Positions 1 to 63,764 of a DNA stretch of 64,000 nt are shown here, in pieces. Source of the DNA: a virus; IMG/VR virus record IMGVR_UViG_3300010413_000021, positions 1-64,000 of that record; one strand, written 5' to 3'. The first letter of the stretch is position 1, and every line of letters starts with the position of its first letter. The position numbers and the translations under genes were made by a program. The notes under the pieces were generated by a model. It did not search any database. It had not been told where the DNA came from and saw only the letters and a program-made list of their open reading frames with translations.

Positions 1-1469
1 GCCTTGCCATAGTTGTCAATATCCATGGTAGTCAGATCAAGCATTGCAGCATTACTATTTGAAAGCACGGTTGCGGGATTATAAATATACATATTGCTCA
101 AGGACACCCGCCCGCTAGTAGCAGCAGCATCGTCAATAAAATTGACATGAGTCCCTCCACCATCCAACTCAGGCCACGCAACGCTCAACCCGGCAATATA
201 AAGATTATCCCGCAAACCAAGTTGAATAAACTTGTCATAGTTAGTTGCCGTATCAGTATCAATATGCCCACCGAGAACGTTAAACCTTGTGTTGCGGTAT
301 CCACCAGCAACCGAAGCCCCTCCTGCTGTGCTATGGATGGCTCGGCCAGCTACATTTTCAATTCCTTCCCAGAAACAACCAATTATGTTGCATGACCGGC
401 AATAATGGTTGGTATTTGCCCCATCAGCCCGCACAGATATACCAAGATCAAACGTATCAAGATGGACACCAGTTAAAGTCAAAGTGTTTTTCTGGTAAAC
501 CCGCACTCCGGTATAAGAACCTCCAGTGCTGCCCGGTGTGATATAAGATGAACGAAGATTAGCATCATCACCACTAGCAAAATAAATGCCGGTTTCACAG
601 GTATCAATATACATGTTTTCATAGATGCAGGCATATGTCTCGTCCTGAATCCCGATGTGAACATTACGAATAGTCACATCAGAAACCTTGCAACCCGGCC
701 CCTGTATTTTTATTGCTATCTCAGTTCCACCGGTTCCAGGCCCATACAGTTCAAATCCGCTCATCTGAAAACGGTTTGCATTTATGTCAATGATTGTTCC
801 GGCATTGGCTGTATAGGTAATTTTCGGGTAGTTAAACTTTCCAGGTCCAGTTAAAGACCCCCCATTAATCGTTATCTGAGTTAGGCTGGTAATGGTATAT
901 TCACCACCCGGCTTCAGCTTGGCATTGACTGATCCGCTGGAAAACAAGTCGTCGAAAGCATCCTGATCTGTGCCCCACCAATCAACATAAGCCTCTTGTC
1001 CATTTAGTGTAATTGTTCCGGTTGTGTTAGTGAAAATCAAACGGGGAGCCGCAATAATAGGCCCGTTCACAGTCAGGGTATATCCGTTTGTATCAATGTT
1101 CCCCTCACCGATAAACCACAATGACACATAAGATGGGACTGTAATATCAGTCTGCATGGTTACGGCATCATCAATAATTATCGTTGTGGTCTGATTCGGC
1201 CCAATGCTTGCCATGGTGGTGTGAAACTCATCATCATGGTCAGCCATATATACAACATTCTGATAATCTTTGATCAATGCCCGAATAGCTTGGAGCAGTT
1301 GGGCATCATTGGTTGCGTCAAGTGCTATCTGCTGACTGGAAATCACATTGCAGATTTCCTCCTGCACAGTATTGCACCAGTCAGCAGTTATCTGAGTGCC
1401 CTGCGGAGTATCGGTGAAAGACTTTTTACCGTCTATGTAAACCCAATTCCTGCCGTTAATCCTTTGCAC
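1..1469 (-). CDS. Tailspike/tail fibre with right-handed beta-helix (partial, C-terminus off the left edge)
   Basis: A minus-strand frame stays open from a GTG at 1469 to the window edge (about 489 codons). The start is supported by AGGAGG at 1479-1484, nine bases upstream. The N-terminus (MQRINGRNWVYIDGKK) is followed by a short helical part. A long Gly/Asn/Thr/Ile-rich region then has the look of a pectate-lyase-like beta-solenoid (for example ITSLTQITINGGSLTGPGKF, VTIRNVHIGIQDETYACIYE). Such proteins bind or cleave host surface glycans from the tail tip. It is the last gene of the tail operon in the window, which fits a receptor-binding role. The catalytic site, if any, and the trimerisation end lie outside the window. 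Confidence 0.8.
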   Translation of the reverse strand, partial: MQRINGRNWVYIDGKKSFTDTPQGTQITADWCNTVQEEICNVISSQQIALDATNDAQLLQAIRALIKDYQNVVYMADHDDEFHTTMASIGPNQTTTIIIDDAVTMQTDITVPSYVSLWFIGEGNIDTNGYTLTVNGPIIAAPRLIFTNTTGTITLNGQEAYVDWWGTDQDAFDDLFSSGSVNAKLKPGGEYTITSLTQITINGGSLTGPGKFNYPKITYTANAGTIIDINANRFQMSGFELYGPGTGGTEIAIKIQGPGCKVSDVTIRNVHIGIQDETYACIYENMYIDTCETGIYFASGDDANLRSSYITPGSTGGSYTGVRVYQKNTLTLTGVHLDTFDLGISVRADGANTNHYCRSCNIIGCFWEGIENVAGRAIHSTAGGASVAGGYRNTRFNVLGGHIDTDTATNYDKFIQLGLRDNLYIAGLSVAWPELDGGGTHVNFIDDAAATSGRVSLSNMYIYNPATVLSNSNAAMLDLTTMDIDNYGK

Positions 1470-2746: not shown

Positions 2747-3397
2747 TTATTCAGCTAATACGCCCCACTGCGGATCAAAATACATGGTATAGAAATCACA
2801 ACTTGTGCCATCATACACTTGCCGAATCCATGCGCTTGTTTCCACATAGCCAACTACCATTGATCCCGCAACATTTGGAGGGGAACCAGAAACATTAACC
2901 TCACCGGCAGAAGTCACACTACAAACCCAAAGAGGTTTCCCCTGCAAAGGATCAGCTCCAGATTGGAACCAAGTTCCAGCGGCATTACTAAACCCTGTAT
3001 TACGTATCAACCCCCGACGCAGAATCTTTGCTTGCGATTCACCAACAGCATACTCACTACAAGCCAGCCCCCAAACCCTGCAACTGTTGACATAAGTATG
3101 ATCCCCTAAATGCCACGTCATTGAGTTAGTCCGCACCACCAGTGCCCCAAAGGAAACAACCTGAGACATTACCTGAGAGTAATCAACCCAACCCCGGTAA
3201 TCCTGATCATCTGAAATCACAGAACCATCAAGCTGTCCATAATCCGGTTCCTTCCAGAAGTCCATCGGGTTTTCAAACTCAACCGGCATCCAAGTTACCA
3301 ACCCATCCCGCAAATCCTGAGCATCAATTTGCCCGGTGACATTATCGGGGAAATAGGTGCTTAAAAGTGTTGATCTAGTTCTCGCTGTATCTGCCAT
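2747..3397 (-). CDS. Accessory tail protein, paralogue 1 of 3
   Basis: A 216-residue protein and the first of three tandem paralogues. The N-terminal block (DNVTGQIDAQDLRDGLVTWM, then EFENPMDFW) resembles short phage proteins often found next to tail-fibre genes. The end is FDPQWGVLAE. The central region is Gly/Ser/Val-rich and looks like beta structure. An AGGAG-type ribosome site lies just upstream of ATG 3397. No enzyme motif is visible. A tail-fibre or receptor-binding accessory role is inferred from position only. Confidence 0.65.
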   Translation of the reverse strand: MADTARTRSTLLSTYFPDNVTGQIDAQDLRDGLVTWMPVEFENPMDFWKEPDYGQLDGSVISDDQDYRGWVDYSQVMSQVVSFGALVVRTNSMTWHLGDHTYVNSCRVWGLACSEYAVGESQAKILRRGLIRNTGFSNAAGTWFQSGADPLQGKPLWVCSVTSAGEVNVSGSPPNVAGSMVVGYVETSAWIRQVYDGTSCDFYTMYFDPQWGVLAE

Positions 3398-8628: not shown

Positions 8629-9976
8629 AACTAATCAATATCTCAAGTTCAGCTCCCCCGGGTGGGAAACCGGGATGCTTCACCAGCGGGCGGTTGCGTT
8701 GCAATATGCTGTCTACCCGATTTACATCCTCATACCTGTCATAAGCAATCACCATCAAAGGATGCGGCCCACCAGCAGGAACGGTATAAGTCGTCAGAAC
8801 TGGTGATAAAGTAGCCCCCATTTTTCGCATCGCAACTGTCACAATGGGCCGCATTGCCTCCAACGCCAAGTAAAGTTTATCATCAAAGAACTCCGGCATA
8901 TTTGCACTAAGTATGTAACCGGGATCATCGGGGTCACTGCCCGCAGCTTTCAGCAGTTGGTAATTGAGAGTGGTAGTAATCAACTTGCCTACTTCGATTG
9001 CCTGATCCGCACTGTCATACCCGCCTACCTTCACCGCCGCCTGTGATGCCTTTGCTATCGCTGCACCCCGCACATAGTCAATCATCACGTTTCTGTTTTT
9101 CTTCTGCACCGTCCGGCTGTAAGCAGTGGAGTCCGGTATCTCCGGCAGACCGCCTACATAGGATGGGGTATCCGTATAACTCCAGCTCGGAGTCGGGGCA
9201 CCAAACTGCACCATGCCCAACGCCGATTCAACGATTGACTTTGCAGAACCGGGGGAACCGTCCGCGCCGTCTATCACCTTATCCCAGGCATCGAAAGCAG
9301 TTTTGAAAATAGTTGTGGCTCCACCCGCTGTGTAAATCCCCTCTGCCATGTCTGCCACTGCCCCGTCTATTATTTCAAATGCCTCTGTCATAAAATGTGA
9401 CGCAGTGCCGTTTATTCCACCGATTAATGACTTCATCATCATGAAAGATTGATAAGCATCAAAGAAAGCCGAGTCCATTATGAAGTTAATGCCATAGTTA
9501 AAATAAGTGCTATACATATCGGCCAGCCAGTCAAAGATATTGTCTGCTGCATCATCTACTGCTGATTCCCAGTCCTCTGTTGACTCAGGCTGCTCACCCG
9601 CTTCAACAAAAGTCATGGTGAACCGGCAGATACCACCCTCACGGTCAAAGGATTCGGATACCCGCACCTTGCCGCTGACATTAGCAGTAATCTCACCCAG
9701 GGACGGATGTATTAACGTGCCCCCGCCCGGTTGCTGCAATGCTGCAATCAGGGCTTGTTTCTCCGGCAGGTAATTGTGAGAGTTTGCAACTGTCTGTATA
9801 ACGTGCCCCGCTATGGTGTGAATGTTGGAGTCCAGCCCCAAATCCTCAACGTAAGCGGTATCTTTGAACGGATACTGATGGACTATATTACGCCGCCCTA
9901 TTTCCGTAGTGGTGCCCAGCACCTTGAACGGCACCCCTCTGAAACTTGCTGGTCTTAGTAAGTCTCTCCAGCTCAT
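8627..9976 (-). CDS. Mu gp43-like tail protein (DNA circularisation N family)
   Basis: A 449-residue protein. The N-terminus (LRPASFRGVPFKVLGTTTEI, then GRRNIVHQYPFKDTAYVEDLG) is the DNA_circ_N / Mu gp43 domain, related to LysM-like tail proteins that link tape measure and baseplate hub. The family name is historical: in Mu this is a tail/baseplate protein. The C-terminal half is helical with Ala-rich segments. Order after the tape measure gene is as in Mu. The start overlaps the end of the tape measure gene by four bases. Confidence 0.87.
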   Translation of the reverse strand: MSWRDLLRPASFRGVPFKVLGTTTEIGRRNIVHQYPFKDTAYVEDLGLDSNIHTIAGHVIQTVANSHNYLPEKQALIAALQQPGGGTLIHPSLGEITANVSGKVRVSESFDREGGICRFTMTFVEAGEQPESTEDWESAVDDAADNIFDWLADMYSTYFNYGINFIMDSAFFDAYQSFMMMKSLIGGINGTASHFMTEAFEIIDGAVADMAEGIYTAGGATTIFKTAFDAWDKVIDGADGSPGSAKSIVESALGMVQFGAPTPSWSYTDTPSYVGGLPEIPDSTAYSRTVQKKNRNVMIDYVRGAAIAKASQAAVKVGGYDSADQAIEVGKLITTTLNYQLLKAAGSDPDDPGYILSANMPEFFDDKLYLALEAMRPIVTVAMRKMGATLSPVLTTYTVPAGGPHPLMVIAYDRYEDVNRVDSILQRNRPLVKHPGFPPGGAELEILIS

Positions 9977-12805: not shown

Positions 12806-14368
12806 CTACAGAATAAACTGATGTTTCTCAGCCAGAATCCTGAACTGGTTAATCAGATCGAACGGCAGCAAAGCATTAACACGGTTCACGTCCGTTGCAT
12901 CCCGCTCCACCTGAATGTTATCAATGAAGTCATCAAGGTTTTCAATCCAACCCTTGTCCCGTAACTCAGTAAACAGGGCAATATATTCCTCCTTGATGTC
13001 CTTCGGCCTTACCACATAACCGCCCGCCCACACCGGCTGGTCATCGTCGGCCAGCTTGAAACGCGGGTTCATGTAGCGGTTGCTCATGCGTGTTTTCGTC
13101 TGGTAACGAATCTCCCCGATAGTGGCAAGGGTCTGGATGTCAAGGTAGCTCCAGTCCGGCAACCCGAGCGCATTGGCTTGATAGGTTGTGATACTGCGTT
13201 CAATCTGCACATAACCGCCGCTGTTCACCGTCCAGGTTGCAATACCATCATAAAGCAGGGTATCCCGCTCCGCTCTGGTGAACTCATTGACTTTCGGGGG
13301 AGGCAAAATGCCGTCCAGTTTGATTGTATGCAAAGGCCTTGCCGGATCAATATTCAGATAGTAAGCTGCCTTTGCTCCCCACGCTGCTGCCCACTCTGCC
13401 GGACTTGTTGGAGAATCATACACCCCAATAATTGTATTGTGTGGGCTGTTCCTGCTGTTTCCCTTTGTGGTGCAGTCAGCCTGTGTTGCTCCATAAGCAG
13501 TAAAACCATGCCCCTGCTTATCATTTAACGGTTCAAACCTGTCCTCTAGCTCATCCTCAATTTCAGTCAGGTTTGCCGCCTCTACATAAGGCTGAATGAC
13601 ATAATGGAATTGCTCATTTTCAATTAGTGTCCAGCAATTTCCAAGATCAGGGTCACTTCCTCCAACAGCAACACTTCCCATTGATTTGATTGATGGTGTT
13701 GCGATAGAACCGGAACCAAACCCAGTAGGATAAGACTGGCCGGTGTAATAATTCTCTCTAATATTGAGATAATTTCCGGGCGTCCCACCAGTTACAGCAC
13801 TAATATAAAGATTTGAAACACTAGCATCTCCAAAGGCAGTTGATCCCATGCTATTACTTGCCGTTACACCAAGCAAGGCAGAATATTGTGAGCCATTAAT
13901 CTTAGTCAAAGTTGCAGAGGCAATATCAGTAGCACTCCAACCTGAAGTAACAGTAACTTCTAGTTCTACACCATTAATCATAAGGAAATAATTTCCGTTG
14001 GTGGTGGACAACTCAGACAAAGCCCCGGTTACTGCCGAAAAGTAAATTGCTCCAATAGCACCAGCAGTGCTGACAACATCACTAGTCCGCAAAGCATAAA
14101 GTTCTGTATTCGGATTATTCTCCTTGAACTTATTAACCATACGTGCGAGGTCACTGCCCGCTCCATAATAACCGTCAGCAAGGTTGTCTCTTGTGATAGC
14201 AGTCAATGTCAATTCACTAACTGTTCCTACCCCTTCCAAACCAGTGCCTATAATCAACGCCTTGTGCGGGTTCTGCGCAAGCCCGGTCAGCGCTCGGCTG
14301 TTGTCAATCTCGCCATAAACGCCGTAAGTCCTAACCGTAGCCGGTATATTGTTAAAAGTGATTGTCAT
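12806..14368 (-). CDS. Contractile tail sheath protein (Mu gpL type)
   Basis: A 520-residue sheath protein. The N-terminus (TFNNIPATVRTYGVYGEIDN), the central domain (PHNTIIGVYDSPTSPAEWAA) and the C-terminal block (IQVERDATDVNRVNALLPFD) are characteristic of Mu gpL-like sheaths. The conserved C-terminus interlocks subunits and packs on the tube. This gene shows the phage is a myovirus with a contractile tail. Its stop and the tube start are separated by only 17 bases. Confidence 0.93.
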   Translation of the reverse strand: MTITFNNIPATVRTYGVYGEIDNSRALTGLAQNPHKALIIGTGLEGVGTVSELTLTAITRDNLADGYYGAGSDLARMVNKFKENNPNTELYALRTSDVVSTAGAIGAIYFSAVTGALSELSTTNGNYFLMINGVELEVTVTSGWSATDIASATLTKINGSQYSALLGVTASNSMGSTAFGDASVSNLYISAVTGGTPGNYLNIRENYYTGQSYPTGFGSGSIATPSIKSMGSVAVGGSDPDLGNCWTLIENEQFHYVIQPYVEAANLTEIEDELEDRFEPLNDKQGHGFTAYGATQADCTTKGNSRNSPHNTIIGVYDSPTSPAEWAAAWGAKAAYYLNIDPARPLHTIKLDGILPPPKVNEFTRAERDTLLYDGIATWTVNSGGYVQIERSITTYQANALGLPDWSYLDIQTLATIGEIRYQTKTRMSNRYMNPRFKLADDDQPVWAGGYVVRPKDIKEEYIALFTELRDKGWIENLDDFIDNIQVERDATDVNRVNALLPFDLINQFRILAEKHQFIL

Positions 14369-17430: not shown

Positions 17431-18029
17431 AGCTGCATCACCCTAAATGGATAAAGTAACCGCTGCACCTCAACCGGTGGGGCTGTCAAATCCAACGCCC
17501 GGTTCTCCCACAGCAAGGCCACAAACAAATTGATGCCGTCCCGTATGCCCTGCGGGACATCCGTTGCCGCTGTGCCATAACCGCCAACATAGATAATCTT
17601 GAACCCTCCATAATCCCGGTCATAGTTAGTCGGTGCGGTCACGTTCTTTTTTATTACCAGCTCACCCGGCTCTTTCGCCGTCTGGAGATAGTAATAATCA
17701 CTTGAATATTCTGTGTCCGTATCATCCTCGTCCGTTGTGTAAACACCAGTGACGGAGATAAGCGGCGGCAACGGAAGCTGTATAACCGTGCCCGGCCAGA
17801 AGTCCATCCTCATTGTGATGGTTTGTCGCAAGAGCGACCGCCAGAGCCATTTAGATGATATGTCCGTTGCCGCCGTGATGAATTGTTCAATCAAAGTATC
17901 CTCAGCATCCGTATCAATCCTGCCGTAGTTCTTTACATCATCGACAGACACAGGATATACCGTTGCCGGGGTTGTAATTGAATAACTCCGGTTTCCATGC
18001 CGATCTAATTCTTTAGCAATCAGCACCAT
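17427..18029 (-). CDS. Head-tail connector (gp6-like)
   Basis: A 200-residue protein with the gp6/phiE125 gp8 pattern: VDDVKNYGRIDTDAEDTLIE, then AATDISSKWLWR near the N-terminus and IIYVGGYGTAATDVPQGIRD in the second half, followed by a helix and a basic end. This family forms the ring attached to the portal. It follows the capsid genes and precedes head closure, as expected. Confidence 0.87.
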   Translation of the reverse strand: MVLIAKELDRHGNRSYSITTPATVYPVSVDDVKNYGRIDTDAEDTLIEQFITAATDISSKWLWRSLLRQTITMRMDFWPGTVIQLPLPPLISVTGVYTTDEDDTDTEYSSDYYYLQTAKEPGELVIKKNVTAPTNYDRDYGGFKIIYVGGYGTAATDVPQGIRDGINLFVALLWENRALDLTAPPVEVQRLLYPFRVMQL

Positions 18030-18337
18030 TACCGTCTCCGTCCTCTACGCTTTGCTTTTGGTTTTTCCTCTTTTGGTTCCGGCTCTGGTGTTGGTTCAGG
18101 CTCAGGAGCATTGACCACCGGCAAAGTTACCGCTTTGTTCATCGGCGCTGCCCCCGCGTCCTTTTCGGCCACCATCGGAACCGGATCAGGAGACAGATAC
18201 ACAGCACAGCCAATCTTGTTGACAAATATCTTGGCAAGGGTTTCACCTAAAATGTATTCCTTGCCAGCTTCATACTTGACAACATGCAGGCCGTCATCCG
18301 CCCCCTTCTCGGTTTTAATCATTTTTACTCGTGGCAT
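18029..18337 (-). CDS. Hypothetical head-region protein with Pro/Glu tail
   Basis: A 102-residue protein. Residues 1-55 form a small domain (HVVKYEAGKEYILGETLAKI). The rest is a low-complexity linker (EPEPTPEPEPKEEKPKAK) with an Arg-rich end (RRGRRR). Small proteins of this layout often sit between capsid and connector genes in HK97-type phages. The function is unknown. The stop overlaps the connector start. Confidence 0.65.
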   Translation of the reverse strand: MPRVKMIKTEKGADDGLHVVKYEAGKEYILGETLAKIFVNKIGCAVYLSPDPVPMVAEKDAGAAPMNKAVTLPVVNAPEPEPTPEPEPKEEKPKAKRRGRRR

Positions 18338-18345
18338 ATTTACTC

Positions 18346-18966
18346 CTATGTCTCTACCAAGGTAACATTGTCACTATACTCAACCACAGTCCAGATACCC
18401 GCCGTCATACAGACCATCTTGAGATATGGAATTTCTGTTGAAGCAGAACCACGAGCCATATCAATTCTGGAAATCTGACTGAAGCCGGAATCTATCTGTG
18501 CATAGATAGAACACTCTGTCGTCACATCACTCATGGAAATCTGCAAGCTGGCCGACAGTCCCCAGTTAGCACCACAGATAACAAGAAAATCACCAAGGTT
18601 TGCTGATTGAATGTCACATGAAGTGTTGCTTGCATTGGTGGACAAGGCAATATCATGATAACCATAAGGAGGCGTCAACGTCGGCAAGTTGCCCGACGTT
18701 CCTGCACCGGAGAGTGCAGCCGTTGCCGCTGATGTGCTCGTCCTTGTGATTGCATAATTCGACCGCAGAAAGTTTTTGATCTGATCCGCAGTATAATTAG
18801 TTCCAAAGAAACCAAAGATACCGCCGGTTGCCATGCTAAAAGTCCCGCCCGCCTGAATGTCAATGTCTCCGCCAGGCTCAACAGCAAGCAAACCACTATC
18901 AGCAATAATAAGCTCCTCGGCTCCCTGCTTGCGGTAGACCTTCGGTTGATAAGTTCCATCTGCCAT
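18346..18966 (-). CDS. Hypothetical structural protein (possible decoration protein)
   Basis: A 206-residue Ser/Thr/Ala/Gly-rich protein that I do not recognise (starts MADGTYQPKVYRKQGAEELI). The composition and beta-prone segments suggest a virion protein. The N-terminal part (GLLAVEPGGDIDIQAGGTFS) is seen in other phage structural proteins. It lies two genes after the capsid, so a head decoration or fibre role is possible. The ribosome site GAGGAGAAAG lies just upstream. Confidence 0.6.
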   Translation of the reverse strand: MADGTYQPKVYRKQGAEELIIADSGLLAVEPGGDIDIQAGGTFSMATGGIFGFFGTNYTADQIKNFLRSNYAITRTSTSAATAALSGAGTSGNLPTLTPPYGYHDIALSTNASNTSCDIQSANLGDFLVICGANWGLSASLQISMSDVTTECSIYAQIDSGFSQISRIDMARGSASTEIPYLKMVCMTAGIWTVVEYSDNVTLVET

Positions 18967-18993
18967 TTTCTTTCTCCTCTATCCCCTTTCAAT

Positions 18994-19037
18994 CGGGGCT
19001 GGGCCGGTAATCCTCTCGGCCCTGGTGCCCAGCCCCG
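18994..19037. repeat. 11-bp GC-rich inverted repeat between head genes
   Basis: CGGGGCTGGGC (18994-19004) and GCCCAGCCCCG (19027-19037) are perfect complements with a 22-base loop that can pair further. There is no U-run on the minus-strand transcript, so it is not a classic terminator. It may stabilise or process the head-gene message below the decoration-like gene. Confidence 0.6.
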
Positions 19038-19070
19038 CAGCTTGACACGCTAACAGTTACAAGTTACCCC

Positions 19071-19625
19071 TTAGTCCTGCGGTGTATCCACCGGCCACAA
19101 GTGAGAACGGCCACGAATAGCCACAACGGCCGCTTCTATCAAAGAGCAATCAGCATTGACTGAGTTTGAAAGAAGACAGCGAACATAACGCCGACCGTGG
19201 AATTTATATCCCACCTTGAAAACCAGCGACCAGGCATCTGCTTGACTTGTATTACTAATACAAAGCGAAAGGAAACGACCGTCATCACCCCCGTCCAGTC
19301 CCATAAACTGACTGTAATCTCCGCAGGCTGTTGAAATGGTGTCTGCTCCTGCACTCTGCATCACAATGTAAGCATCTGAAACTGCTGACCATGTAGCAGC
19401 AGGACCAGAACAGAAACCAACACTCACCGAACCATCCGTTTCTTGTAAATAGAAGTAATATCCAGAAGCAGAACCAAGTGCAGAACCTTCACCAACATGG
19501 ACAAGGAAAGTTACTCCTTCATATCCCTGACAATCTACTGCCGCACCAGTTGCTGCATCAGTATATGCATTAGGCTCAAGGCAATTGAAAAACCCAAAAT
19601 CTCCAATTTGTTCGTGTCTCGGCAT
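19071..19625 (-). CDS. Hypothetical protein next to the capsid gene (possible head decoration)
   Basis: A 184-residue protein (QIGDFGFFNCLEPNAYTDAA; later KVGYKFHGRRYVRCLLSNSV). It lies directly downstream of the major capsid gene. The pattern of a middle that resolves to KFHGRRYVR with a beta-rich body resembles small proteins found beside capsid genes in other phages. No catalytic motif is seen. Head decoration or stabilisation is an inference from position. Confidence 0.6.
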   Translation of the reverse strand: MPRHEQIGDFGFFNCLEPNAYTDAATGAAVDCQGYEGVTFLVHVGEGSALGSASGYYFYLQETDGSVSVGFCSGPAATWSAVSDAYIVMQSAGADTISTACGDYSQFMGLDGGDDGRFLSLCISNTSQADAWSLVFKVGYKFHGRRYVRCLLSNSVNADCSLIEAAVVAIRGRSHLWPVDTPQD

Positions 19626-19653
19626 TACTCAACCCTCCTTTCCATAACTATCA

Positions 19654-21036
19654 TTACGGAGCAATGACACCAATTTTCCCACTTTGGAAGTTCTTGATAT
19701 CTCCACCATATCTTGCTCTTGACCAGTATTCGATCTCGGGCTTCTGAGTATACGGGTCTCTCTGCAAAGTGATCCCGCGCCGGTCAACCACCATATAGAA
19801 CTGGCTCCAATCAGCAAGCACATAGGCCAAAGCACCAGCACCCACCTGTGGCATAGACGTTGCCATACGTGTGGGAAGCCCCAACAGAATTGACGGAGTG
19901 CCAGCGGAGATCCCCTCGCGCCAGATGTAACGCCCGTCACCATCCTTGAGCAGCATGGTTTCCATCACGGTCAAACGGTTCATCACCCAGGTTGCCCGCG
20001 CCATATAGCCTTCAAGCAAACTGAATTTCAGACGAATCAGACCATCGGTTGTGGGCAATGTAGCATGAAGCAGATTAGTCCGCTCAACATCCCCCCATGC
20101 TGTCGTCCCGTTAGGATAAGTCAGGAAACCACGAGGCCGATCCGTGCCGTTGCCTTCAACATAGGCATTGCCCGTTGCCCGACTGAAACGGTCTGCAATC
20201 TTTCCTGCAACCCAACCTTCAAGGTCACGAGAAGCATCTTCCATCACCTGCTGAGTAGCATGGATACGAGCATCAAGTGTATGAACAGGGATCAGACGCT
20301 TTCTCCATTTCGGAGTGGTCGTTTCCGATGTAATGGTAAGCTCAGAAGCCCATCCATACGTCACATCATCCATATCAGCAAGGAACTCAACCGAATCCGT
20401 GTTAGTAGTTTCAACCGCCGCCAGTTCACGAATAGGATCAGTTTCACGAAGGAAACCCACAACAGTATTCAGCATACGTGGAGTAACAAAGATTCCGCCG
20501 TCTGCTTCAACCCCCACACTCAGCATTTTTTGCTGTTCAGGAGTCATGATACTGCCAGGATCACCCATCTGCCCGCGCCGCAAGTAAATCTGAAAAGCCT
20601 CATTGAAGTTTTTAAACTCTTCAACATTCACATCAGCATCAGAAAGACCGGCAACAGGCAACTGATTTTTCCTTGCCAGCAATTCAGTTTTCCATGCTTT
20701 GGCTTCCTTGAACACAGGATCTTCCCTGTCTACTTTACCGTCAGTAGGAACCGACTGAATTGCTGTTTCGAGTGAGTCCATCCGCTCAGTCAGTTTTGTG
20801 TTCAGATTGTCAAGTGCTTCCTGCTTTGCAGCGATGGAAGTTTTCAACTGCTGCACCTGCTGAACCACGGCGGCGTCTGTCTCTGACTTCAGCCCGTCAA
20901 CCAGCTTCCGCAGGGTTTCACCCTCTTTCCGCAGTTCCTCATGCAGTGCTTTCGTGTTGTCTCCCAGCGCAGCAACTTCCTTCTGCACCTCTTTAAATAC
21001 TTCAGGCTCCTCGCCCTTTTTCCAAATGCCTTCCAT
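19654..21036 (-). CDS. Major capsid protein (HK97 fold)
   Basis: A 460-residue HK97-type capsid protein. The first 110 residues are a charged coiled-coil scaffold (delta) domain (KGEEPEVFKEVQKEVAALGD, then a Lys/Glu/Leu heptad pattern). The body starts around GVEADGGIFVTPRMLNTVVG and ends with YGGDIKNFQSGKIGVIAP. The delta domain is normally cut off by the protease encoded next door. It follows the protease gene by one base, the usual order. Confidence 0.92.
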   Translation of the reverse strand: MEGIWKKGEEPEVFKEVQKEVAALGDNTKALHEELRKEGETLRKLVDGLKSETDAAVVQQVQQLKTSIAAKQEALDNLNTKLTERMDSLETAIQSVPTDGKVDREDPVFKEAKAWKTELLARKNQLPVAGLSDADVNVEEFKNFNEAFQIYLRRGQMGDPGSIMTPEQQKMLSVGVEADGGIFVTPRMLNTVVGFLRETDPIRELAAVETTNTDSVEFLADMDDVTYGWASELTITSETTTPKWRKRLIPVHTLDARIHATQQVMEDASRDLEGWVAGKIADRFSRATGNAYVEGNGTDRPRGFLTYPNGTTAWGDVERTNLLHATLPTTDGLIRLKFSLLEGYMARATWVMNRLTVMETMLLKDGDGRYIWREGISAGTPSILLGLPTRMATSMPQVGAGALAYVLADWSQFYMVVDRRGITLQRDPYTQKPEIEYWSRARYGGDIKNFQSGKIGVIAP

Positions 21037-52921: not shown

Positions 52922-53061
52922 TGGATAAAAAACTAACATCAGCTATTGTGGGGCTTGCTGCTCTTGGTATCTTGATATACACAAAAGGGGACAAAATTAA
53001 AGACACCATCAAGAAAACAATCAAAGATTTAACACAAAAAGAGGAGGGAATAAAAGAATGA
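52921..53061 (+). CDS. Small single-pass membrane protein
   Basis: A 46-residue frame from ATG 52921 (TAATG overlap): one N-terminal membrane segment (SAIVGLAALGILIYTKG) and a Lys-rich helix (IKDTIKKTIKDLTQKEEGIK). It resembles small phage anchor peptides. It ends four bases into the lipoprotein gene. Confidence 0.6.
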   Translation: MDKKLTSAIVGLAALGILIYTKGDKIKDTIKKTIKDLTQKEEGIKE

Positions 53062-54503
53062 AACTTTTGAGAAACGGGACTTTTCTATTGTTAGTATTCT
53101 TTACTGTTATGCTTTATGTTTTGCTTGCTGCTGCCGGGTGCAGTCTGTTTGACAAGGAACCGGCACCACCACCGGCAAATCCAGAGAGCATTATCAGCGG
53201 CAGAGTAATTGTCAAAATGCAGGGGCAAACTACGCAATTGCGGGGTGTAACTGTCAAGTATCAAGGGTATGAAACACAAACCAATGCTGAGGGCCGGTTT
53301 GCTTTAACTGTTATTTTTAACATGAATCATAAATACATCCGGCTGATTAAGGACGGATACAAAAATAGAACGGTTGATCTGCCGGGGGATTGGACAGGCG
53401 GCAATGTTGAACTGAATAAGATAGAAATGCAAGTAGTTGACTCAGGAGAGTTGCCGGACCCGCCGGACGAGCCTGACCCACCGGACGATCCGGAAGATCC
53501 GGACCCGCCGCCGCCGAACGACTTTGATTTTGATTCGTGCGTGTTGCGCGGGTTCTCTGATAGTTACTCGTTTTGGTTCAGCGAAGATAAATTCCGTGGC
53601 ATGTGCCAGGAAGTCCGTGCAACCGGGGCGAATTGCATAGCTCCGTTGCCCGACGCTTCCTGGGGTTACTCCAGCGCCCGAAAGGGCTGTGGCGGTTGGG
53701 TGTCGGACCAGGAGTGGTGGCAGTATATGCACAACACCTGGGACGACGGCGGCGGCCCGTTTCAGCCATACAACAGTCAATTCGCCATCTACGAACCGAT
53801 TTATACGGACGGCGGGTTAAACCAAGCATGGGTTAACCTGATTTCCGCCCGGGTGCGAATCGCGGAAGAGGAAGGTCTGTATGTTGTCCTTACGCTTTGG
53901 AATGCCAACGATACCAAGCGGCACGGACTCCAGCACTGGGTTCCGCTTAATTGTGGGGAGTCGCCTTTCCTTGGTTCTGCGGCCTGGAGCAAACAGCAAC
54001 AGGCCATGGCCGCACTTCTGCCAATGTTGAAGGATCGAAAGAATGTAATTCTGTCCGACAACTGGGAATCACTCCAGAACCGATATGGTGGGTCGAGTAT
54101 TGACCTAGAGTGGAAAAAGCTGGTGTATGCCGAGGCTAGAAAACACCTGCCAGATGTGCCGTATTACGTTTACATCGACAATTACACAAGCGGTGACGTT
54201 ACCGGCTGGATCAACTCTACGCCGGGCATTGCCGGGGCGCATTTCCACTATTCCGACATCATGGCCTTTCCTATTGCCAGTAATAAGCGGGTTCTGCTCA
54301 CGGAAAAGAGCAATCTCAGTATGGGTGTGATCGTTCCCACTTTTGAGGAGGGTGATCATAACGGTTGGGATGTTTGTATCTTGGTCATGGGGTATAGGCA
54401 CTTTATGAGATATGATGACGCCCCGCCCTGGCCGAAAGATATTCAAAAGGACGAGCGGGAAGCTGCTTACCCGAAGATTCAGGAATATTTTGGATTAAAC
54501 TGA
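53058..54503 (+). CDS. Lipoprotein with glycoside-hydrolase-like domain
   Basis: A 481-residue exported lipoprotein. A signal with lipobox LLAAAGC (Cys about 28) comes first. Then a carboxypeptidase-regulatory-like beta domain (ISGRVIVKMQGQTTQLRGVT) and a Pro/Asp linker (PPDEPDPPDDPEDPDPPPPN). The large C-terminal domain (about residues 160-480) looks like a TIM-barrel glycosidase of clan GH-A: VILSDNWES and RVLLTEKSN are candidate catalytic Glu strands. It would sit in the host envelope and could change surface glycans during infection. Family and substrate are not certain. Confidence 0.72.
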   Translation: MKLLRNGTFLLLVFFTVMLYVLLAAAGCSLFDKEPAPPPANPESIISGRVIVKMQGQTTQLRGVTVKYQGYETQTNAEGRFALTVIFNMNHKYIRLIKDGYKNRTVDLPGDWTGGNVELNKIEMQVVDSGELPDPPDEPDPPDDPEDPDPPPPNDFDFDSCVLRGFSDSYSFWFSEDKFRGMCQEVRATGANCIAPLPDASWGYSSARKGCGGWVSDQEWWQYMHNTWDDGGGPFQPYNSQFAIYEPIYTDGGLNQAWVNLISARVRIAEEEGLYVVLTLWNANDTKRHGLQHWVPLNCGESPFLGSAAWSKQQQAMAALLPMLKDRKNVILSDNWESLQNRYGGSSIDLEWKKLVYAEARKHLPDVPYYVYIDNYTSGDVTGWINSTPGIAGAHFHYSDIMAFPIASNKRVLLTEKSNLSMGVIVPTFEEGDHNGWDVCILVMGYRHFMRYDDAPPWPKDIQKDEREAAYPKIQEYFGLN

Positions 54504-58044: not shown

Positions 58045-58199
58045 TTGATTCACTTATTAATTCATTTGAAAAAGCAGATCCAATAATAATTGTAATTTGT
58101 TCAATCCCGGTTGGGATAGCATTGGGATTGCTTTTAATAAATTTAGTAAAGTTGATCTTTTGTCTATTTGTTATTTTATTTGAAAGGATAACAGGATGA
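58041..58199 (+). CDS. Small membrane protein
   Basis: A 52-residue frame in ATGA overlaps at both ends. The middle is one long or two short hydrophobic segments (PIIIVICSIPVGIALGLLLI, then NLVKLIFCLFVILF). Lies between the Rad50 half and the sugar cassette. Not recognised. Confidence 0.6.
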   Translation: MIDSLINSFEKADPIIIVICSIPVGIALGLLLINLVKLIFCLFVILFERITG

Positions 58200-58981
58200 A
58201 AACAGTAGCAATCATTCTCTGTCGTATGGCCTCAAGCCGATTGCCGGGCAAGGCACTTTTGCCGTTAGCAGGCAAGCCAAGTTTGCAATGGTGCTATGAG
58301 CGGGTGTCAGCGGCAAAGGAAGTGGATGAGGTTGTCATTGCCACAACATTGAATGAATCTAATAACGCCCTTCGCATGGTTTGTGAGGAGAATCAATGGA
58401 CATGCTTTAACTACCCGCAGGATGAAAATGATTGTTTGGGCCGGGTGTATAACTGTGCTGTTACCTGTCAAGCAGACATAATAGTTGACATCACCGCCGA
58501 CTGCCCGCTGGTCGATCCCCGGCATATTGACCATCTGGTTAAACTGCTCAAGGATACCGGCTATGATTATGTCAGTAATGATATAATCAGCAGGTCATGG
58601 TGTGACGGTGCCGATTTACAAATTTACACCATGAATGCTTTGAATCGAATCTGTGCTGCTCCATATTCAATGATTAATAAAGAGCATACCGGCTGGAATA
58701 TTGCAGCACACGGACATGAATTTGCACCAGCCATGAAAATATATCACTTAGTAGCACCAGAGACAATGAACTGGCCGGAATTGTCCCTTTCGTTAGACTG
58801 TGCAGAAGATTGGAAATTCCTTGAAAAGCTGATGCTGGATGCTGGTGTAGACAGAGACAAAAGACACAATATTGATACTACACTTGAAGATATAATTCAA
58901 TTTCTAAAACACAGATTGATAGATGAACCCGGCTATATTACTAATCAGGGTATTCACCGAAAATGGAGAGATGCAAAATGA
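58196..58981 (+). CDS. Cytidylyltransferase (SpsF/NeuA-like)
   Basis: A 261-residue nucleotidyltransferase. IILCRMASSRLPGKALLPLA near the N-terminus is the nucleotide-binding signature of the SpsF/CMP-sugar synthetase group. ADIIVDITADCPLVDPRHID holds the acidic metal residues. It should transfer CMP to a nonulosonic or similar acid sugar made by the following genes. First gene of the sugar cassette. Start in ATGA overlap. The family also has members of unknown substrate. Confidence 0.82.
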   Translation: MKTVAIILCRMASSRLPGKALLPLAGKPSLQWCYERVSAAKEVDEVVIATTLNESNNALRMVCEENQWTCFNYPQDENDCLGRVYNCAVTCQADIIVDITADCPLVDPRHIDHLVKLLKDTGYDYVSNDIISRSWCDGADLQIYTMNALNRICAAPYSMINKEHTGWNIAAHGHEFAPAMKIYHLVAPETMNWPELSLSLDCAEDWKFLEKLMLDAGVDRDKRHNIDTTLEDIIQFLKHRLIDEPGYITNQGIHRKWRDAK

Positions 58982-59583
58982 AATTGATAAGGAAAACAGT
59001 AGTGAAAGTTAGTTCTACAGGAAAGAGCAAATCTAGCTATGGGTTGTTCTACTGTGATTATTGCAAACAAGAGGTTGAAAGAAAACTGAATCATGGAAAA
59101 GAAAATAAATCTTGTGGTTGTATGAGAACCAAACACAACATCAAACATGGACTAACACCAAAACACCAAAAACAAGCCCCTATATATCAGATATGGGCAG
59201 GAATGAAAGCCCGCTGCCGAGATAAAAATCATAGCGGTTATCATAGTTATGGTGGTCGTGGTATTAAAGTTTGCAAAGAATGGGATGAGGATTTCTGCTC
59301 CTTTTGGGAGTGGTCAAAGAAAAATGGTTATAGAAAAGGGCTAACCATTGACCGAATTGACAATGATGGAAATTATGAACCTGATAATTGCAGATTTGTT
59401 ACTCATCGAGAAAACTACTGTAATTGTAGTCGTGTCAAACTTAGTTTTGAGAAAGCAGAAAAAATAAGAAAACTATATGTTACTGGCAACTTTCGACAAA
59501 AAGACTTAGCCAAAAAATATAACGTTCCACAAACATCTATTAGCAGAGTTGTCCTAAATAAAGTATGGAGTCAGCCATTATGA
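58978..59583 (+). CDS. Homing-type endonuclease inserted in the sugar cassette
   Basis: A 201-residue protein from ATG 58978. The core (YQIWAGMKARCRDKNHSGYH, YGGRGIKVCKEW, then LTIDRIDNDGNYEPDNCRFV) is the typical phage endonuclease of the HNH/AP2-associated type. A CDYC...CGC cluster at the N-terminus may bind zinc, and the C-terminus has a helix-turn-helix (FRQKDLAKKYNVPQTSISRV). It interrupts the sugar genes, with overlapped ends, so it is likely a selfish insertion. Confidence 0.82.
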   Translation: MKLIRKTVVKVSSTGKSKSSYGLFYCDYCKQEVERKLNHGKENKSCGCMRTKHNIKHGLTPKHQKQAPIYQIWAGMKARCRDKNHSGYHSYGGRGIKVCKEWDEDFCSFWEWSKKNGYRKGLTIDRIDNDGNYEPDNCRFVTHRENYCNCSRVKLSFEKAEKIRKLYVTGNFRQKDLAKKYNVPQTSISRVVLNKVWSQPL

Positions 59584-60164
59584 TCCAAGGTGAAAAAGTA
59601 TATCTGTCAGCGGTTGAGCCTGAGAACTGGGAAACTTTACGGGCTTGGAGAAACCTGCCGGAGCTGCGGGCAAACTTCAGGGAATATCGTGAACTGACAA
59701 AGGGGATGCAGGAGCAGTATTGGCGGGCGGTGGAGCAGGACAGGACGCAGGTTCATTTTGAGGTTCATACTGAAAAAGCACACAGGCAATCAGTTATAGA
59801 CGATAAAACAGGCAAAATAATAAAACCAAGTCACATTGCTTATAACGAACTAATCGGCTACTGTGGCTTGACTCACATCTCATGGACTAACAGGAGCGGA
59901 GAGTTTGGCTTGTATATTGCGCCGGAGTTCCAGGGCAACGGCTACGGCTGGGATGCCTTGACTACGCTTGTCAAGTATGGGTTTGAGGAATTGAACCTGC
60001 ATCGGATCTGGTGTGAATGTTACAGCAACAATGATCATGCAGTAGGGATGTATGCCACGATGGGTTTCCGGTCTGAGGGGATATTGAAGCAGCATTATTA
60101 TCATGCCGGACAGTATTGGGATTCAGTTATTATGGGGTTGCTGAAAGAGGAGTGGGAGGGATAG
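59580..60164 (+). CDS. GNAT-family N-acetyltransferase of the sugar cassette
   Basis: A 194-residue GNAT enzyme from ATG 59580. VYLSAVEPENWETLRAWRNL at the start, then the CoA-binding strand GEFGLYIAPEFQGNGYGWDA and the end GFRSEGILKQHYYHAGQYWD are typical of RimJ/SpsD/PseH-like N-acetyltransferases. In this setting it would acetylate an amino sugar made by the DegT enzyme. A segment near residues 60-90 is an insert of Lys/Asp-rich residues. Ends next to the oxidoreductase start. Confidence 0.82.
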   Translation: MIQGEKVYLSAVEPENWETLRAWRNLPELRANFREYRELTKGMQEQYWRAVEQDRTQVHFEVHTEKAHRQSVIDDKTGKIIKPSHIAYNELIGYCGLTHISWTNRSGEFGLYIAPEFQGNGYGWDALTTLVKYGFEELNLHRIWCECYSNNDHAVGMYATMGFRSEGILKQHYYHAGQYWDSVIMGLLKEEWEG

Positions 60165-61187
60165 ATGACTAAAAAACTACGTGCTGTAATTATTGGATCA
60201 GGGAACATTGGAGCAAATAAACCAGATCATATAGACAGGCCAGATGGACCAAACATCCTAACACATGCTCATGGATATCAAGCAAATCCCCAAACTGAGT
60301 TAGTAGGATTTGTTGACATTGATTTTGATAAACTGTCGATGGCTACTTATAAATGGGGTAGAAACATTCCAATACTTCATGGCAAAAACATGAATCAGGT
60401 TTTAGACAAAATGAAACCTGATATTATTACTATTTCTGCTTGCACTAGTGTCCAGCTTCAGGTTATTGAAGAATTGCTTAAAGGCAAAGGCCCACGTCCT
60501 AAAGTAATTCTGCATGAAAAACCAATGGGCATGAATACTACAGAAGCAAAAAAGATTGCCACTATCTGCAAAAAAGAGAATATCATTATTACTGTAAATT
60601 ATACCCGCCGCTATGATCCTGACCATCGAAATATAGCACAGAAATTGAAGGGAAAACAAATCTACCATAGCAGACTGGTATATGGTCGAGGACTTCGGCG
60701 TGATGGTTGCCATGCTGTTGATCTTGCTCATTGGTTATTTGGCAAACGATTAAACACAAAAGCAACTGATCCATTGAAAGCAGAGCATCATGGGGAAGTA
60801 ACGCCCTGTATTTCTCAGACATTAGCATTTGAGCATTGCCCCCGTGTTTCCTTTGAATGGATAGATTCAAACCATTTCAGCATATTTGAATATGATCTAT
60901 TCTATGAAGGTGGGCATATTCGTTTTTACAGAAATGGTATGATGTATGAAGAGGGGGAAGTAAAAGCAGAAGATGAACTCGGAAAATATAAAGCTCTTTA
61001 TCCTGATCCTGAAGCACCACGAAATACAAGCCTAGTTCCATTTCTGATTGCTCGTCCGATAGAACATGCAATTAGACTTGCCCAAGGAAAAGAAACAAAG
61101 CCTTATTGCTCTGCTGAAGATGCAGTCCGTGTTCATGAAACAATGGAATTTATGTTAGGGGATAAAGGAGAATTTAACTATGCCTAA
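60165..61187 (+). CDS. Gfo/Idh/MocA-family oxidoreductase
   Basis: A 340-residue NAD(P)-dependent dehydrogenase. GSGNIG (11-16) binds the dinucleotide and HEKPMG (117-122) is the family EKP motif with catalytic Lys. The later YGRGLRRDGCHAVDLAHWLF contains the conserved Asp and His. It would oxidise a sugar carbon to a ketone before transamination by the next enzyme. Eight bases of overlap with the aminotransferase gene suggest coupled production. Confidence 0.87.
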   Translation: MTKKLRAVIIGSGNIGANKPDHIDRPDGPNILTHAHGYQANPQTELVGFVDIDFDKLSMATYKWGRNIPILHGKNMNQVLDKMKPDIITISACTSVQLQVIEELLKGKGPRPKVILHEKPMGMNTTEAKKIATICKKENIIITVNYTRRYDPDHRNIAQKLKGKQIYHSRLVYGRGLRRDGCHAVDLAHWLFGKRLNTKATDPLKAEHHGEVTPCISQTLAFEHCPRVSFEWIDSNHFSIFEYDLFYEGGHIRFYRNGMMYEEGEVKAEDELGKYKALYPDPEAPRNTSLVPFLIARPIEHAIRLAQGKETKPYCSAEDAVRVHETMEFMLGDKGEFNYA

Positions 61188-62607
61188 ACTAGCAATCAAC
61201 GGCGGCCCCAAAGTCAGAACCAGCTTACTCCCCAATCAACAGACGTGGGGATGGGATGAGGCTTCTGCTGCTTTTCAAGTTATTCGTAAAGGCCCACTCA
61301 CCGGCTACCAAGGTAACTGGAGCGAGGCATTTTATGGCGGGCCGGAGATTCGTGCGCTGGAAAAGGAGTGGTGTGAGAAGTTCGGCAGCCGCCATGCAAT
61401 CTGTGTCAACTCCTGCACGTCCGGGCTGTTTGTGGCGTTGGGCGCGGTGTTGGGGCCATTGAAGGAAGTTGTGGGCTTGCCTTCACCAGGAGACCCTATT
61501 GATCAATGGTGGGCTAATGGTGAAGTCATAGTCTCACCCTACTCCATGACCTGCTCTGCCTCACTTCCTTTAGCATGGGGGGCAAGGCCGGTGTTCGCTG
61601 ACATTGAACGGGATCACTTTTGCATTGACCCGGTTGACGTTGAAAGGAAAATTACTGACAGAACCAAAGCTATACTTGCTGTCAGTTTGTTTGGGCAGCC
61701 GTATGATCCAAAGCTGAATGAGATTGCCGAGAAACACGGCATACCGATTATTGAGGATGCGGCGCAGGCGTTGGGATCAAGAATTACAATTCCACATAGT
61801 GACCCTTATATTGATCCATCAGCAGAAAGCACAGTTCATTTTGCCGGGACGCTCGGCACAATCGGTGTCTATTCATTCAACCAAGGCAAGCATATCACCT
61901 GCGGGGAAGGCGGGATGATTGTTACTGATGACGATGAATTGGCTCACCGTTGCAGATTATTAATGAACCACAGCGAGTCAGTTGTCCATGATTGGATTCA
62001 AGCCTGTAAACACCCTGAATCAGATCGTATTGGGGATTATGAAAAAAGAGTATTTGACAATACCGCAAATATGTATGGATTTAACTTGCGTCTCGGAGAA
62101 ATGGCCGCTAGTGTGTTGCGCGTCCAACTAAGTAAGCTGGATGAAATGCTGAAATTGCGGTTGCAGAACGTTGAATATTTGCAGCAGGAGATCCCCAAAG
62201 TCTGCCCGGCGCTTGAGGCGTTAGGGCCGAGGGCGGGGGCAAGCCATACTTACTATGTGTTGCCGTTTCGATATGATACAAGTCGGCGCACCCATATGAA
62301 TGAAGATGAAACAACATACTATACTGCCCCTAACCGTAACCGCTTTATTGAAGCCGTCTGTGCAGAACTAAGCCCCTGCGAAGGGCGTGAGCATGAAGGT
62401 GTGCCGATACGGGGCGGGTATATCACGCCTATCTACCGTATGCCTTTGTTTGATCTGCCGGAAGGAACCTGCCCGATGTGTGAGCAGGTGCAGAATGAGG
62501 AGCTGGTTTTGGTTCACAGATTGATCGGGCCGAACGCTGACCGGGAAAGTCTTGAGGATGTAGTTCGGGCGTTTGGGAAGGTGTGGGAGAATAGGGGAGA
62601 ATTGTAA
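61180..62607 (+). CDS. DegT/DnrJ/EryC1/StrS-family sugar aminotransferase
   Basis: A 475-residue PLP enzyme. IIEDAAQALG (Asp 193) and YSFNQGKHITCGEGGMIVTD (Lys 237) are the cofactor-binding motifs. VNSCTSGLFVALGAVLGP lies at the phosphate site. It puts an amino group on a keto sugar. It is longer than the usual 370-400 residues, with extra sequence around 375-440 (TTYYTAPNRNRFIEAV, then CPMCEQVQ). The oxidoreductase is the preceding gene, a known functional pair. Confidence 0.88.
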   Translation: MPKLAINGGPKVRTSLLPNQQTWGWDEASAAFQVIRKGPLTGYQGNWSEAFYGGPEIRALEKEWCEKFGSRHAICVNSCTSGLFVALGAVLGPLKEVVGLPSPGDPIDQWWANGEVIVSPYSMTCSASLPLAWGARPVFADIERDHFCIDPVDVERKITDRTKAILAVSLFGQPYDPKLNEIAEKHGIPIIEDAAQALGSRITIPHSDPYIDPSAESTVHFAGTLGTIGVYSFNQGKHITCGEGGMIVTDDDELAHRCRLLMNHSESVVHDWIQACKHPESDRIGDYEKRVFDNTANMYGFNLRLGEMAASVLRVQLSKLDEMLKLRLQNVEYLQQEIPKVCPALEALGPRAGASHTYYVLPFRYDTSRRTHMNEDETTYYTAPNRNRFIEAVCAELSPCEGREHEGVPIRGGYITPIYRMPLFDLPEGTCPMCEQVQNEELVLVHRLIGPNADRESLEDVVRAFGKVWENRGEL

Positions 62608-62608
62608 A

Positions 62609-62899
62609 ATGAATTGGTTGCCATATCCACAAAATGAACCAGCAGATGAAGAGTGGGTTTTAACAGCAAAAGTAATCCGATATGGAAATGCACCCTGGAA
62701 GTGGCATATTAACTACGCCCAATATCGAAATCGAAATCGAAATGGAGGATTTTTTTGTTCAGACAGTCTAGGATGGGGACGGATAGATGAGCCAGACTTT
62801 TTTGCTTCTGTTGATCTTCCAAAATTTATAATAAAACCAGTTCATCAAAAAGAGCAAAAAACATGCAAAATTGGATGCAGTTTTGGTGCTGACTTATAA
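62609..62899 (+). CDS. Hypothetical protein in the sugar cassette
   Basis: A 96-residue protein from ATG 62609 (MNWLPYPQNEPADEEWVLTA; later GFFCSDSLGWGRIDEPDFFA). The Trp/Pro pattern recalls small phage DUF551-like proteins. Not an enzyme I recognise. It lies between the aminotransferase and synthase genes and may be a later addition. Confidence 0.6.
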   Translation: MNWLPYPQNEPADEEWVLTAKVIRYGNAPWKWHINYAQYRNRNRNGGFFCSDSLGWGRIDEPDFFASVDLPKFIIKPVHQKEQKTCKIGCSFGADL

Positions 62900-62912
62900 A
62901 AAGGAAAACAAA

Positions 62913-63764
62913 ATGCCAACTAAATTTATATGTGACATCGGCGCGAATCACAACGCCGACTTTAACCGTCTCACCCGCCTGGTAAAGACCGCCAAGCGCA
63001 TCGGCTGTGACGGGGTGAAGGGGCAGTTGTTCAATGAAAACCTATACGCCCCGCAGTTCAAACAGCAGCGGGACATGATGGCAAAGCGGGCAATGCCTGA
63101 AGGTTTTATTATCGAACTGCACAAGCTATGCAAGGATGAGGGGCTGGAGTTTCACATGACACCCTTTTCCCTTGAAGCAGTAGACAAGCTGGCAAATTGG
63201 GTGGACGGGCTGAAAATCGGCAGCTATGAAATATTGTGGCTGGACTTGATACGGAAATGTTTAGAAACCGATCTCCCTGTTGGTATAAGCACAGGAAATT
63301 GCAATGAAAAAGACTTGTGGAACGTATCTGACATGATGGATGATCTTGAACTGTTACATCCTGATGATCCACCGCACACTTTATATCATTGTATTGGGCA
63401 CTATCCAGCAAACCCTGATACTAGCAATTTGAAAAACATCAAAGAGTTGAATAGAATTTTTTGTTTTGATTTTAAGATTGGCTACTCCGATCACACCCGC
63501 TCCCCTGGTGTGATATACCGGGCGATAATGGTGGGGGCTGAGGCAATAGAATTTCACCTTGACCTGGACGGAGAGGGCTGGGAGTTTGAGCATGGACACT
63601 GCTGGTTGCCTGCTGAGATACAGGAAGTAATCAGCAATGTCAGGATAGGCGAACTGGCAGTCAGTGGTGAGCGGTCTGATGACAGTGAAATCAGGAAGTG
63701 GAGAACTGACCCTGTTGACGGTATGCGGCCTCTTGCACAATACCGTGAGGAGCTAAGTAAATGA
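62913..63764 (+). CDS. NeuB-like nonulosonic acid synthase
   Basis: A 283-residue (beta/alpha)8 synthase from ATG 62913, ribosome site AAGGAAA. CDIGANHNADFNRLTRLVKT, then GCDGVKGQLF follows the NeuB/SpsE N-terminal pattern. KIGSYEI, GYSDHTRSPG and EFHLDLDG supply the later active-site strands. It would condense phosphoenolpyruvate with an amino-hexose to a nine-carbon acid. The antifreeze-like (SAF) C-terminal domain of normal NeuB is absent, so the enzyme is short. Residue Phe/Leu of the K-F/L-Q motif is Gly here (KGQ). Confidence 0.85.
   Translation: MPTKFICDIGANHNADFNRLTRLVKTAKRIGCDGVKGQLFNENLYAPQFKQQRDMMAKRAMPEGFIIELHKLCKDEGLEFHMTPFSLEAVDKLANWVDGLKIGSYEILWLDLIRKCLETDLPVGISTGNCNEKDLWNVSDMMDDLELLHPDDPPHTLYHCIGHYPANPDTSNLKNIKELNRIFCFDFKIGYSDHTRSPGVIYRAIMVGAEAIEFHLDLDGEGWEFEHGHCWLPAEIQEVISNVRIGELAVSGERSDDSEIRKWRTDPVDGMRPLAQYREELSK

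Follow-up and report, generated by a model that had tools for sequence, protein, structure and literature searches.

The window analyzed here comprises bases 1-64000 of the 70,648-bp virus record IMGVR_UViG_3300010413_000021 and carries, near its right end, a cassette of sugar enzymes that runs on beyond position 63764 and the window edge (64000) on the same strand of the same record. We found that the complete cassette combines a nonulosonic acid-type (NeuB) pathway with a Maf-type glycosyltransferase, and we are somewhat inclined to read it as a whole as a phage-encoded cytoplasmic protein O-glycosylation system, probably of the virion (tail). That the locus synthesizes a cytidine monophosphate (CMP)-activated sugar and glycosylates protein is very likely; given these two activities, the acceptor is probably a virion protein. 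The rest of the record was read as stretch L002, which covers record positions 57001-70648. The record begins and ends with the same 144 bases, and because this direct terminal repeat is exact, the genome was taken to be closed and circular with a length of 70,504 bp.

The initial annotation had placed five enzymes of a nonulosonic (sialic acid-like) sugar pathway at 58196-63764, with EKP, Lys237 and GYSDHT motifs. Family matches confirmed all five at this position, each in the family proposed and with strong statistics; as far as sequence comparison goes, the expectation (E) values exclude chance as the source of these assignments, and the proposal that a NeuB-type cassette resides on a phage is supported. 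All cassette genes described here lie on the plus strand. The first (58196..58981) encodes a CMP-sugar cytidylyltransferase of the SpsF/KdsB/NeuA-like type (Pfam CTP_transf_3, 91.7 bits, E 7.7e-26), whose PDB matches were headed by the cytidylyltransferase 6oew (1.4e-19), followed by KdsB and CMP-N-acetylneuraminate (CMP-Neu5Ac) synthetase; it scored below every curated equivalog cut-off. A PseH-like GNAT N-acetyltransferase, GNAT 1 (59565..60164; Acetyltransf_3, 2.9e-17), gave 72.7 bits with NCBIfam PseH (cut-off 93.1). Adjoining it are a Gfo/Idh/MocA-type NAD(P)-dependent sugar oxidoreductase with an EKP motif (60165..61187; Pfam GFO_IDH_MocA, 5.1e-9) and a DegT/PseC-like pyridoxal phosphate-dependent sugar aminotransferase with a GKH motif at Lys237 (61180..62607; Pfam DegT_DnrJ_EryC1, 5e-66), which reached 150.7 bits with NCBIfam PseC against a cut-off of 423.5. 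The adjacency of the Gfo/Idh and DegT genes is conserved in phage cassettes, and Gfo/Idh relatives were found at 31 viral NeuB loci compared with 6 of 80 cellular NeuB loci. The presence of this oxidoreductase in the phage cassettes suggests one more redox step, oxidative or reductive, and therefore a variant form of the sugar. Besides the extension past 63764 and the closure of the genome, the initial description needed two corrections: it had missed an HNH gene, described below, and the NeuB protein lacks the SAF domain.

The fifth gene (62913..63764; Pfam NeuB, 2.5e-41) encodes a SAF-less nonulosonic acid synthase of the NeuB/PseI type with a GYSDHT motif; translation probably begins at the ATG at 62913, giving 283 residues. 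The NeuB domain scored 142 bits against a cut-off of 22.1, which places the protein in the NeuB/PseI family, and its closest solved relatives were a short N-acetylneuraminate synthetase (6ncs, 2.1e-17), SpsE (1vli) and PseI (8h2c). Residues K35, Q37, K100, Y163, S191-D192-H193, E212 and H214 were invariant in the NeuB alignment, which stops after the barrel, so that the C-terminal SAF domain of canonical NeuB and PseI is missing. The SAF-less subfamily is also cellular, with 223 confirmed cellular matches. The score against the PseI equivalog was 104.3 bits (cut-off 340.25), and since the PseC, PseH and PseI matches all fall below their equivalog cut-offs, we did not classify the locus as encoding the pseudaminic acid pathway. 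Related phage contigs (L118:8985-9626, L121:13383-14033, L131:10976-11614, L110:11392-12045 and L112 about 8938-9567) encode a compact NeuB-like protein of about 215 residues, the smallest synthase form met in this analysis, which keeps the K, Q, K, Y, SDH, E and H residues.

The initial annotation had suggested that the missing parts of the pathway might lie just right of the window or come from the host. A PseB-type dehydratase and a Maf glycosyltransferase were indeed found there, but a sugar hydrolase was not. The dehydratase, a PseB/FlaA1-type enzyme acting on uridine diphosphate N-acetylglucosamine (UDP-GlcNAc 4,6-dehydratase; record 64219-65253; NCBIfam PseB, 9.5e-107; FlaA1 structure 2gn4, E 5e-75), keeps the catalytic TDK...Y...K segment and scored 356.7 bits against the PseB equivalog cut-off of 407.75. 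The last gene of the cassette (record 67325-70156; MptE-like, 3.1e-43) encodes a 943-residue Maf/PseD-type protein O-glycosyltransferase with a C-terminal tetratricopeptide repeat (TPR) region. Between the two lie a second GNAT gene, GNAT 2 (record 65621-66223; E 8.1e-20), and a gene for a radical S-adenosylmethionine (SAM) protein (record 66195-67211; E 4e-8), the latter without a relative in other cassettes of its phage group. The Maf gene converges on a minus-strand tail-fibre gene, and the two stops overlap by 4 bp. The tail-fibre 5' part lies at 1..1469 (PHROG tail fiber, 6.3e-11) and its 3' part at record 70153-70504; followed through the junction of the circle as far as record position 70153, the frame gives one protein of 606 residues, which is a putative acceptor. 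Alternative candidate acceptors are three paralogous small tail-module proteins encoded in tandem on the minus strand (1484-2113, 2117-2734 and 2747-3397), recognized by alignment and by a viral scan. This protein family marks the phage lineage; the member tested (2750-3397) had no PHROG match.

When IMG/VR was scanned with single NeuB and Maf sequences, no matches were obtained, and relatives in that collection were found only with alignment-based queries, which revealed about 27 more contigs in which several cassette genes have relatives. The gene order of group 1, which is kept in diverged contigs, is SbcD, SbcC-like, cytidylyltransferase, Gfo/Idh, DegT, NeuB, PseB, GNAT2 and Maf. Group 2 has the order cytidylyltransferase, Gfo/Idh, DegT, terminase small subunit, GNAT, formyltransferase, compact NeuB, PseB, Maf, terminase large subunit and portal; the cassette of contig L118 lies between the small and large terminase subunits, and Maf is directly followed by terminase genes in contig L131. 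Two unrelated settings, tail fibre and terminase, place the cassette with virion genes. NeuB was present in 27 and Maf in 25 of the 29 cassette records, and a flagellin gene in none of the 29.

A lineage test was performed by scanning IMG/VR with the small tail protein encoded next to the tail fibre; a tail gene was the query, and selection for the cassette was therefore avoided. The scan yielded 53 loci, 20 of them with at least 5 kb beyond the tail gene. Maf was convergent just past the tail fibre in 15 of these 20; of the five exceptions, four had Maf elsewhere in the record and one was a 31-kb fragment. Among the newly examined records, every one of 44 kb or more carried both Maf and NeuB (10/10). 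These results indicate that the cassette is close to a core trait of the lineage, a claim limited to the lineage of the cassette phages because the query alignment was built from them. Counting both sets, Maf and NeuB occur together in at least 36 IMG/VR phage records, a figure that includes a few near-duplicates such as L184 and L186. The SbcC-like and tail-lineage proteins had almost no relatives among phage isolates. We regard it as an evenly balanced proposition that a large, uncultivated lineage of contractile-tailed phages uses this self-contained, near-core system and its TPR-bearing viral Maf to glycosylate its own tail proteins, producing sialic acid-like virions.

The central MptE-like domain of Maf (PF01973) scored 148 bits against a cut-off of 34.6, and NCBIfam PseD matched residues 8-610 with 131.5 bits, under its cut-off of 670. 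A profile of 28 viral and cellular Maf homologues identified the solved Magnetospirillum Maf 5mu5 with an E-value of 6.9e-23. An AlphaFold model built from the same alignment (predicted local distance difference test score 89.5, predicted template modelling (TM) score 0.84) had 5mu5 as its best PDB match (E 2.5e-15, TM 0.55 by target) and thus has the Maf fold. Its next PDB matches were TPR domains, including the one in O-GlcNAc transferase. Beyond residue 620, the TPR extension of some 320 residues was covered at 0.80-1.0 in all full-length Mafs of group 1 (10/10), compared with just 0.07-0.22 in the aligned cellular Mafs and the second phage group. In a maximum-likelihood tree of 46 Mafs, the viral proteins formed two exclusively viral clades (14 and 9 members), both supported at 99-100% and borne on long stems. 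The cellular Mafs in this tree were sampled from genomes with the same NeuB subfamily, and because of this sampling the tree cannot name the cellular donor. A recent donor was not found in a sample of 297 genomes belonging to the same phylum as a Desulfovibrio genome, which held only distant Mafs, the best match reaching 147 bits over residues 7-496, and tblastn gave no recognizable Maf relative in 50,697 GenBank phages. The cellular locus whose DegT most resembles the phage DegT (35%, 260 bits) is a PseB-NeuB-cytidylyltransferase-Gfo/Idh-DegT cluster in a Desulfovibrionaceae genome (L048:7837-14265). Several viral proteins in BFVD (A0A6J5PG89, A0A0F7L3H2, A0A6J5PVH5 and others), labelled 6-hydroxymethylpterin diphosphokinase MptE-like, have a fold similar to that of the Maf core. 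They share the central Maf domain fold with the phage Maf but are named as pterin kinases and are mostly much shorter; judged by these models, they may be glycosyltransferases.

In nonulosonic acid pathways, the 4-keto-6-deoxy sugar that PseB makes from UDP-GlcNAc is aminated by DegT and acetylated by GNAT, and NeuB condenses the free sugar with phosphoenolpyruvate. By this logic, the PseB-type dehydratase, DegT, the GNAT protein or proteins and Gfo/Idh would build a modified amino-sugar from UDP-GlcNAc. Hydrolysis of the UDP-sugar would presumably be supplied by the host or carried out by an unrecognized enzyme. The SAF-less NeuB would then combine the amino-sugar with phosphoenolpyruvate to give a nonulosonic acid, which the cytidylyltransferase would activate with CMP. 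Finally, the Maf-type transferase would attach the nonulosonic acid to Ser/Thr residues of a protein chosen by its C-terminal TPR domain. The likeliest acceptor would be a virion protein made at the same time, foremost the tail fibre or the adjoining small tail proteins, and the particle would bear a nonulosonic acid coat altering adsorption, stability or recognition. The order of steps, the sugar and the acceptor are those that the enzyme families and gene neighbourhoods suggest.

Several observations weigh against virion glycosylation by this route. None of the pathway proteins reached its curated equivalog cut-off, so the sugar may not be pseudaminic acid. A PseG hydrolase (TIGR03590) and a NeuC/WecB-type epimerase (PF02350) were each found in 0 of 29 cassette records, and the cellular island L028 appears to hold a PseG-like gene, as judged by eye from a motif only. 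No acceptor stood out among the virion proteins by Ser/Thr content (tail fibre 16.0%, sheath 16.0%). The cassette lies far from the tail fibre in at least four phages (records of L110, L176, L203 and L211), and where the two are adjacent, this may reflect shared ancestry and a usual site for accessory genes. To our knowledge, every characterized Maf acts on flagellin. Pointing toward a virion acceptor are the tail or terminase neighbourhood, the lineage-specific TPR region and the viral-only Maf clades, together with the finding that the phage records carry no flagellin gene and the small range of acceptors that tested Mafs use. Characterized Mafs modify Ser/Thr residues of proteins within the cytoplasm (PMC11339370, PMC4065374), and those of C. 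botulinum and G. kaustophilus leave non-cognate flagellins unmodified (PMC11339370). Since the viral Maf has long diverged and tested Mafs reject non-cognate flagellins, it is likely specialized for another acceptor.

During infection, the same cassette could instead act on the host, modifying its flagellin or some other surface protein and thereby changing motility or blocking competitor phages that bind the flagellum. Flagellin is the substrate of characterized Mafs (PMC11339370, PMC4065374), the homologous cellular cassette L028 adjoins flagellin, and a flagellin acceptor would have to be the host's because none of the phage records encodes one. We nevertheless consider this unlikely: the phage Mafs are not nested among the sampled cellular Mafs, which are devoid of the TPR extension, non-cognate flagellin was rejected by the Mafs tested so far (PMC11339370), and the phage genes sit with tail or terminase genes. 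A rather less probable alternative concerns the sugar, which Maf would transfer in the form of another CMP-activated 2-keto-3-deoxy acid sugar rather than a nine-carbon nonulosonic acid. The pairing of Gfo/Idh with DegT, typical of the phage form, would suit such a product, as would the unmet curated cut-offs and the failure to find PseG or NeuC in the 29 records, and the C. botulinum Maf also accepts 3-deoxy-D-manno-octulosonic acid (KDO; PMC11339370); the conserved NeuB catalytic positions and the closeness of PseB to FlaA1 argue the other way.

Reshaping of host surface glycans had been among the roles suggested at the outset, and it is weakened because the only recognized transferase is of the Maf type, which acts on protein. 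Incorporation of the activated acid sugar into host lipopolysaccharide or capsule, with alteration of the phage receptor, now appears quite improbable. CMP-nonulosonates do enter many O-antigens and capsules, and phages that alter host surface glycans are well known, but the cassette has no recognized polysaccharide glycosyltransferase or flippase, and the transferase conserved in it belongs to the Maf type in 25 of 29 records. Decoration of phage DNA, another initial suggestion, was dropped because no DNA-modifying enzyme was seen. A misassembled host locus, named in the initial annotation as grounds for rejection, is refuted by the closed genome and by synteny across dozens of independent phage contigs, and, the cellular origin of the enzyme families notwithstanding, an accidental locus devoid of phage function is hardly credible when the cassette occurs in 10/10 large tail-lineage records and the viral Maf clades have 99-100% support. 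Among the options first considered, the best fit is a modified virion, and host flagellin is the rival. No integrase was found, which is consistent with the lytic life style first assigned to the phage but does not prove it.

The closest known systems are the Maf/PseD flagellin glycosylation islands of Campylobacter, Aeromonas, Clostridium and Magnetospirillum, which have homologous PseB, DegT, GNAT, NeuB-type synthase, cytidylyltransferase and Maf proteins and follow the same logic. Cellular island L028 carries a SAF-less NeuB and Maf beside flagellin, its probable acceptor. In contrast, the phage-borne cassette contains no flagellin and has tail-fibre or terminase neighbours; Gfo/Idh is added, PseG is not recognized, and its Mafs bear a C-terminal TPR region and form viral-only clades. 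By sequence comparison, the phage form appears to be a variant of these islands with the same enzymes and logic; we call it a variant because it fails several equivalog cut-offs, lacks PseG, SAF and flagellin, and has gained Gfo/Idh and TPR. The pseudaminic acid glycosyltransferase FlmG of Caulobacter recruits its acceptor flagellin through a TPR domain (PMC7591256). Both enzymes fuse TPR to a nonulosonic acid protein glycosyltransferase, but FlmG is described as GT-B-type with an N-terminal TPR, whereas the phage protein belongs to the Maf family and has its TPR at the C-terminus, and the resemblance is one of function alone. Mycobacteriophages have been reported to glycosylate their virions and thereby to escape immune recognition (Freeman et al. 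2023 as cited in PMC12619734), which resembles the proposed system in being phage-directed glycosylation of virion proteins; the passage of PMC12619734 that cites this work mentions neither a nonulosonic acid pathway nor Maf. The abbreviation list of PMC6359870 names pseI for marine phages. Marine phages with single pse/neu-type genes (PMC6359870, AG-345-L05 and contigs L094-L101) likewise carry NeuB-family genes, but no Maf-linked CMP-nonulosonate cassette was seen in this set; AG-345-L05 showed 22% identity to part of NeuB only. A NeuB search of GenBank phages gave one weak marine match, and no description of a phage Maf or phage CMP-nonulosonate cassette was found in the open-licence literature.

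Additional features were observed in and around the cassettes. The HNH endonuclease gene (58963..59583, plus strand; PHROG HNH, 1.1e-47) sits between the cytidylyltransferase and GNAT 1 genes, overlaps each by about 18 bp, and is not present in the syntenic cassette of phage contig L092; it is probably a homing gene that invaded the cassette. Phage contig L106 has an HNH gene (13173-13868) inside a split Maf gene, and the Maf gene of L116 is likewise split (17876-20753). Such HNH insertions are possibly homing elements or introns targeting conserved phage genes. A small open reading frame without a family match (62573..62899, plus strand) lies between DegT and NeuB. Three contigs have a gene between NeuB and PseB (L106:8177-9256, L116:14202-15296 and L123:12474-13574); the L106 copy matches the sialidase-like BNR_2 domain (6.1e-17), and the other two start alike. 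Genes for a second GNAT-like protein, a sugar formyltransferase and a B12-binding radical-SAM protein also occur in group-2 cassettes (L118:1427-3428, L121:12736-13290 and L124), which suggests sugars with additional decorations. Viral contigs L094-L101 contain NeuB and a PseB-like gene with no Maf detected, and three also have a GNAT 42-47% identical to GNAT 1. Upstream of the SbcC-like gene, a predicted lipoprotein of 481 residues with a proline-rich linker and no Pfam match is encoded at 53058-54503. Promoter and terminator scans gave results at chance level and were left unused.

We know of no precedent for sialic acid-like virions. Maf-dependent nonulosonic acid glycosylation has so far been a bacterial flagellar trait, and a conserved phage module that has viral-only Maf clades and abuts tail or packaging genes would mean that phages can run their own protein sialylation-like chemistry. 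Some viral proteins now named pterin kinase (MptE) are suggested to be glycosyltransferases, and the diverged viral Mafs offer a natural set for the open question of how Maf chooses its acceptor. Glycosylated virions are a testable prediction, and they could account for host-range, shielding or adhesion properties of these phages.

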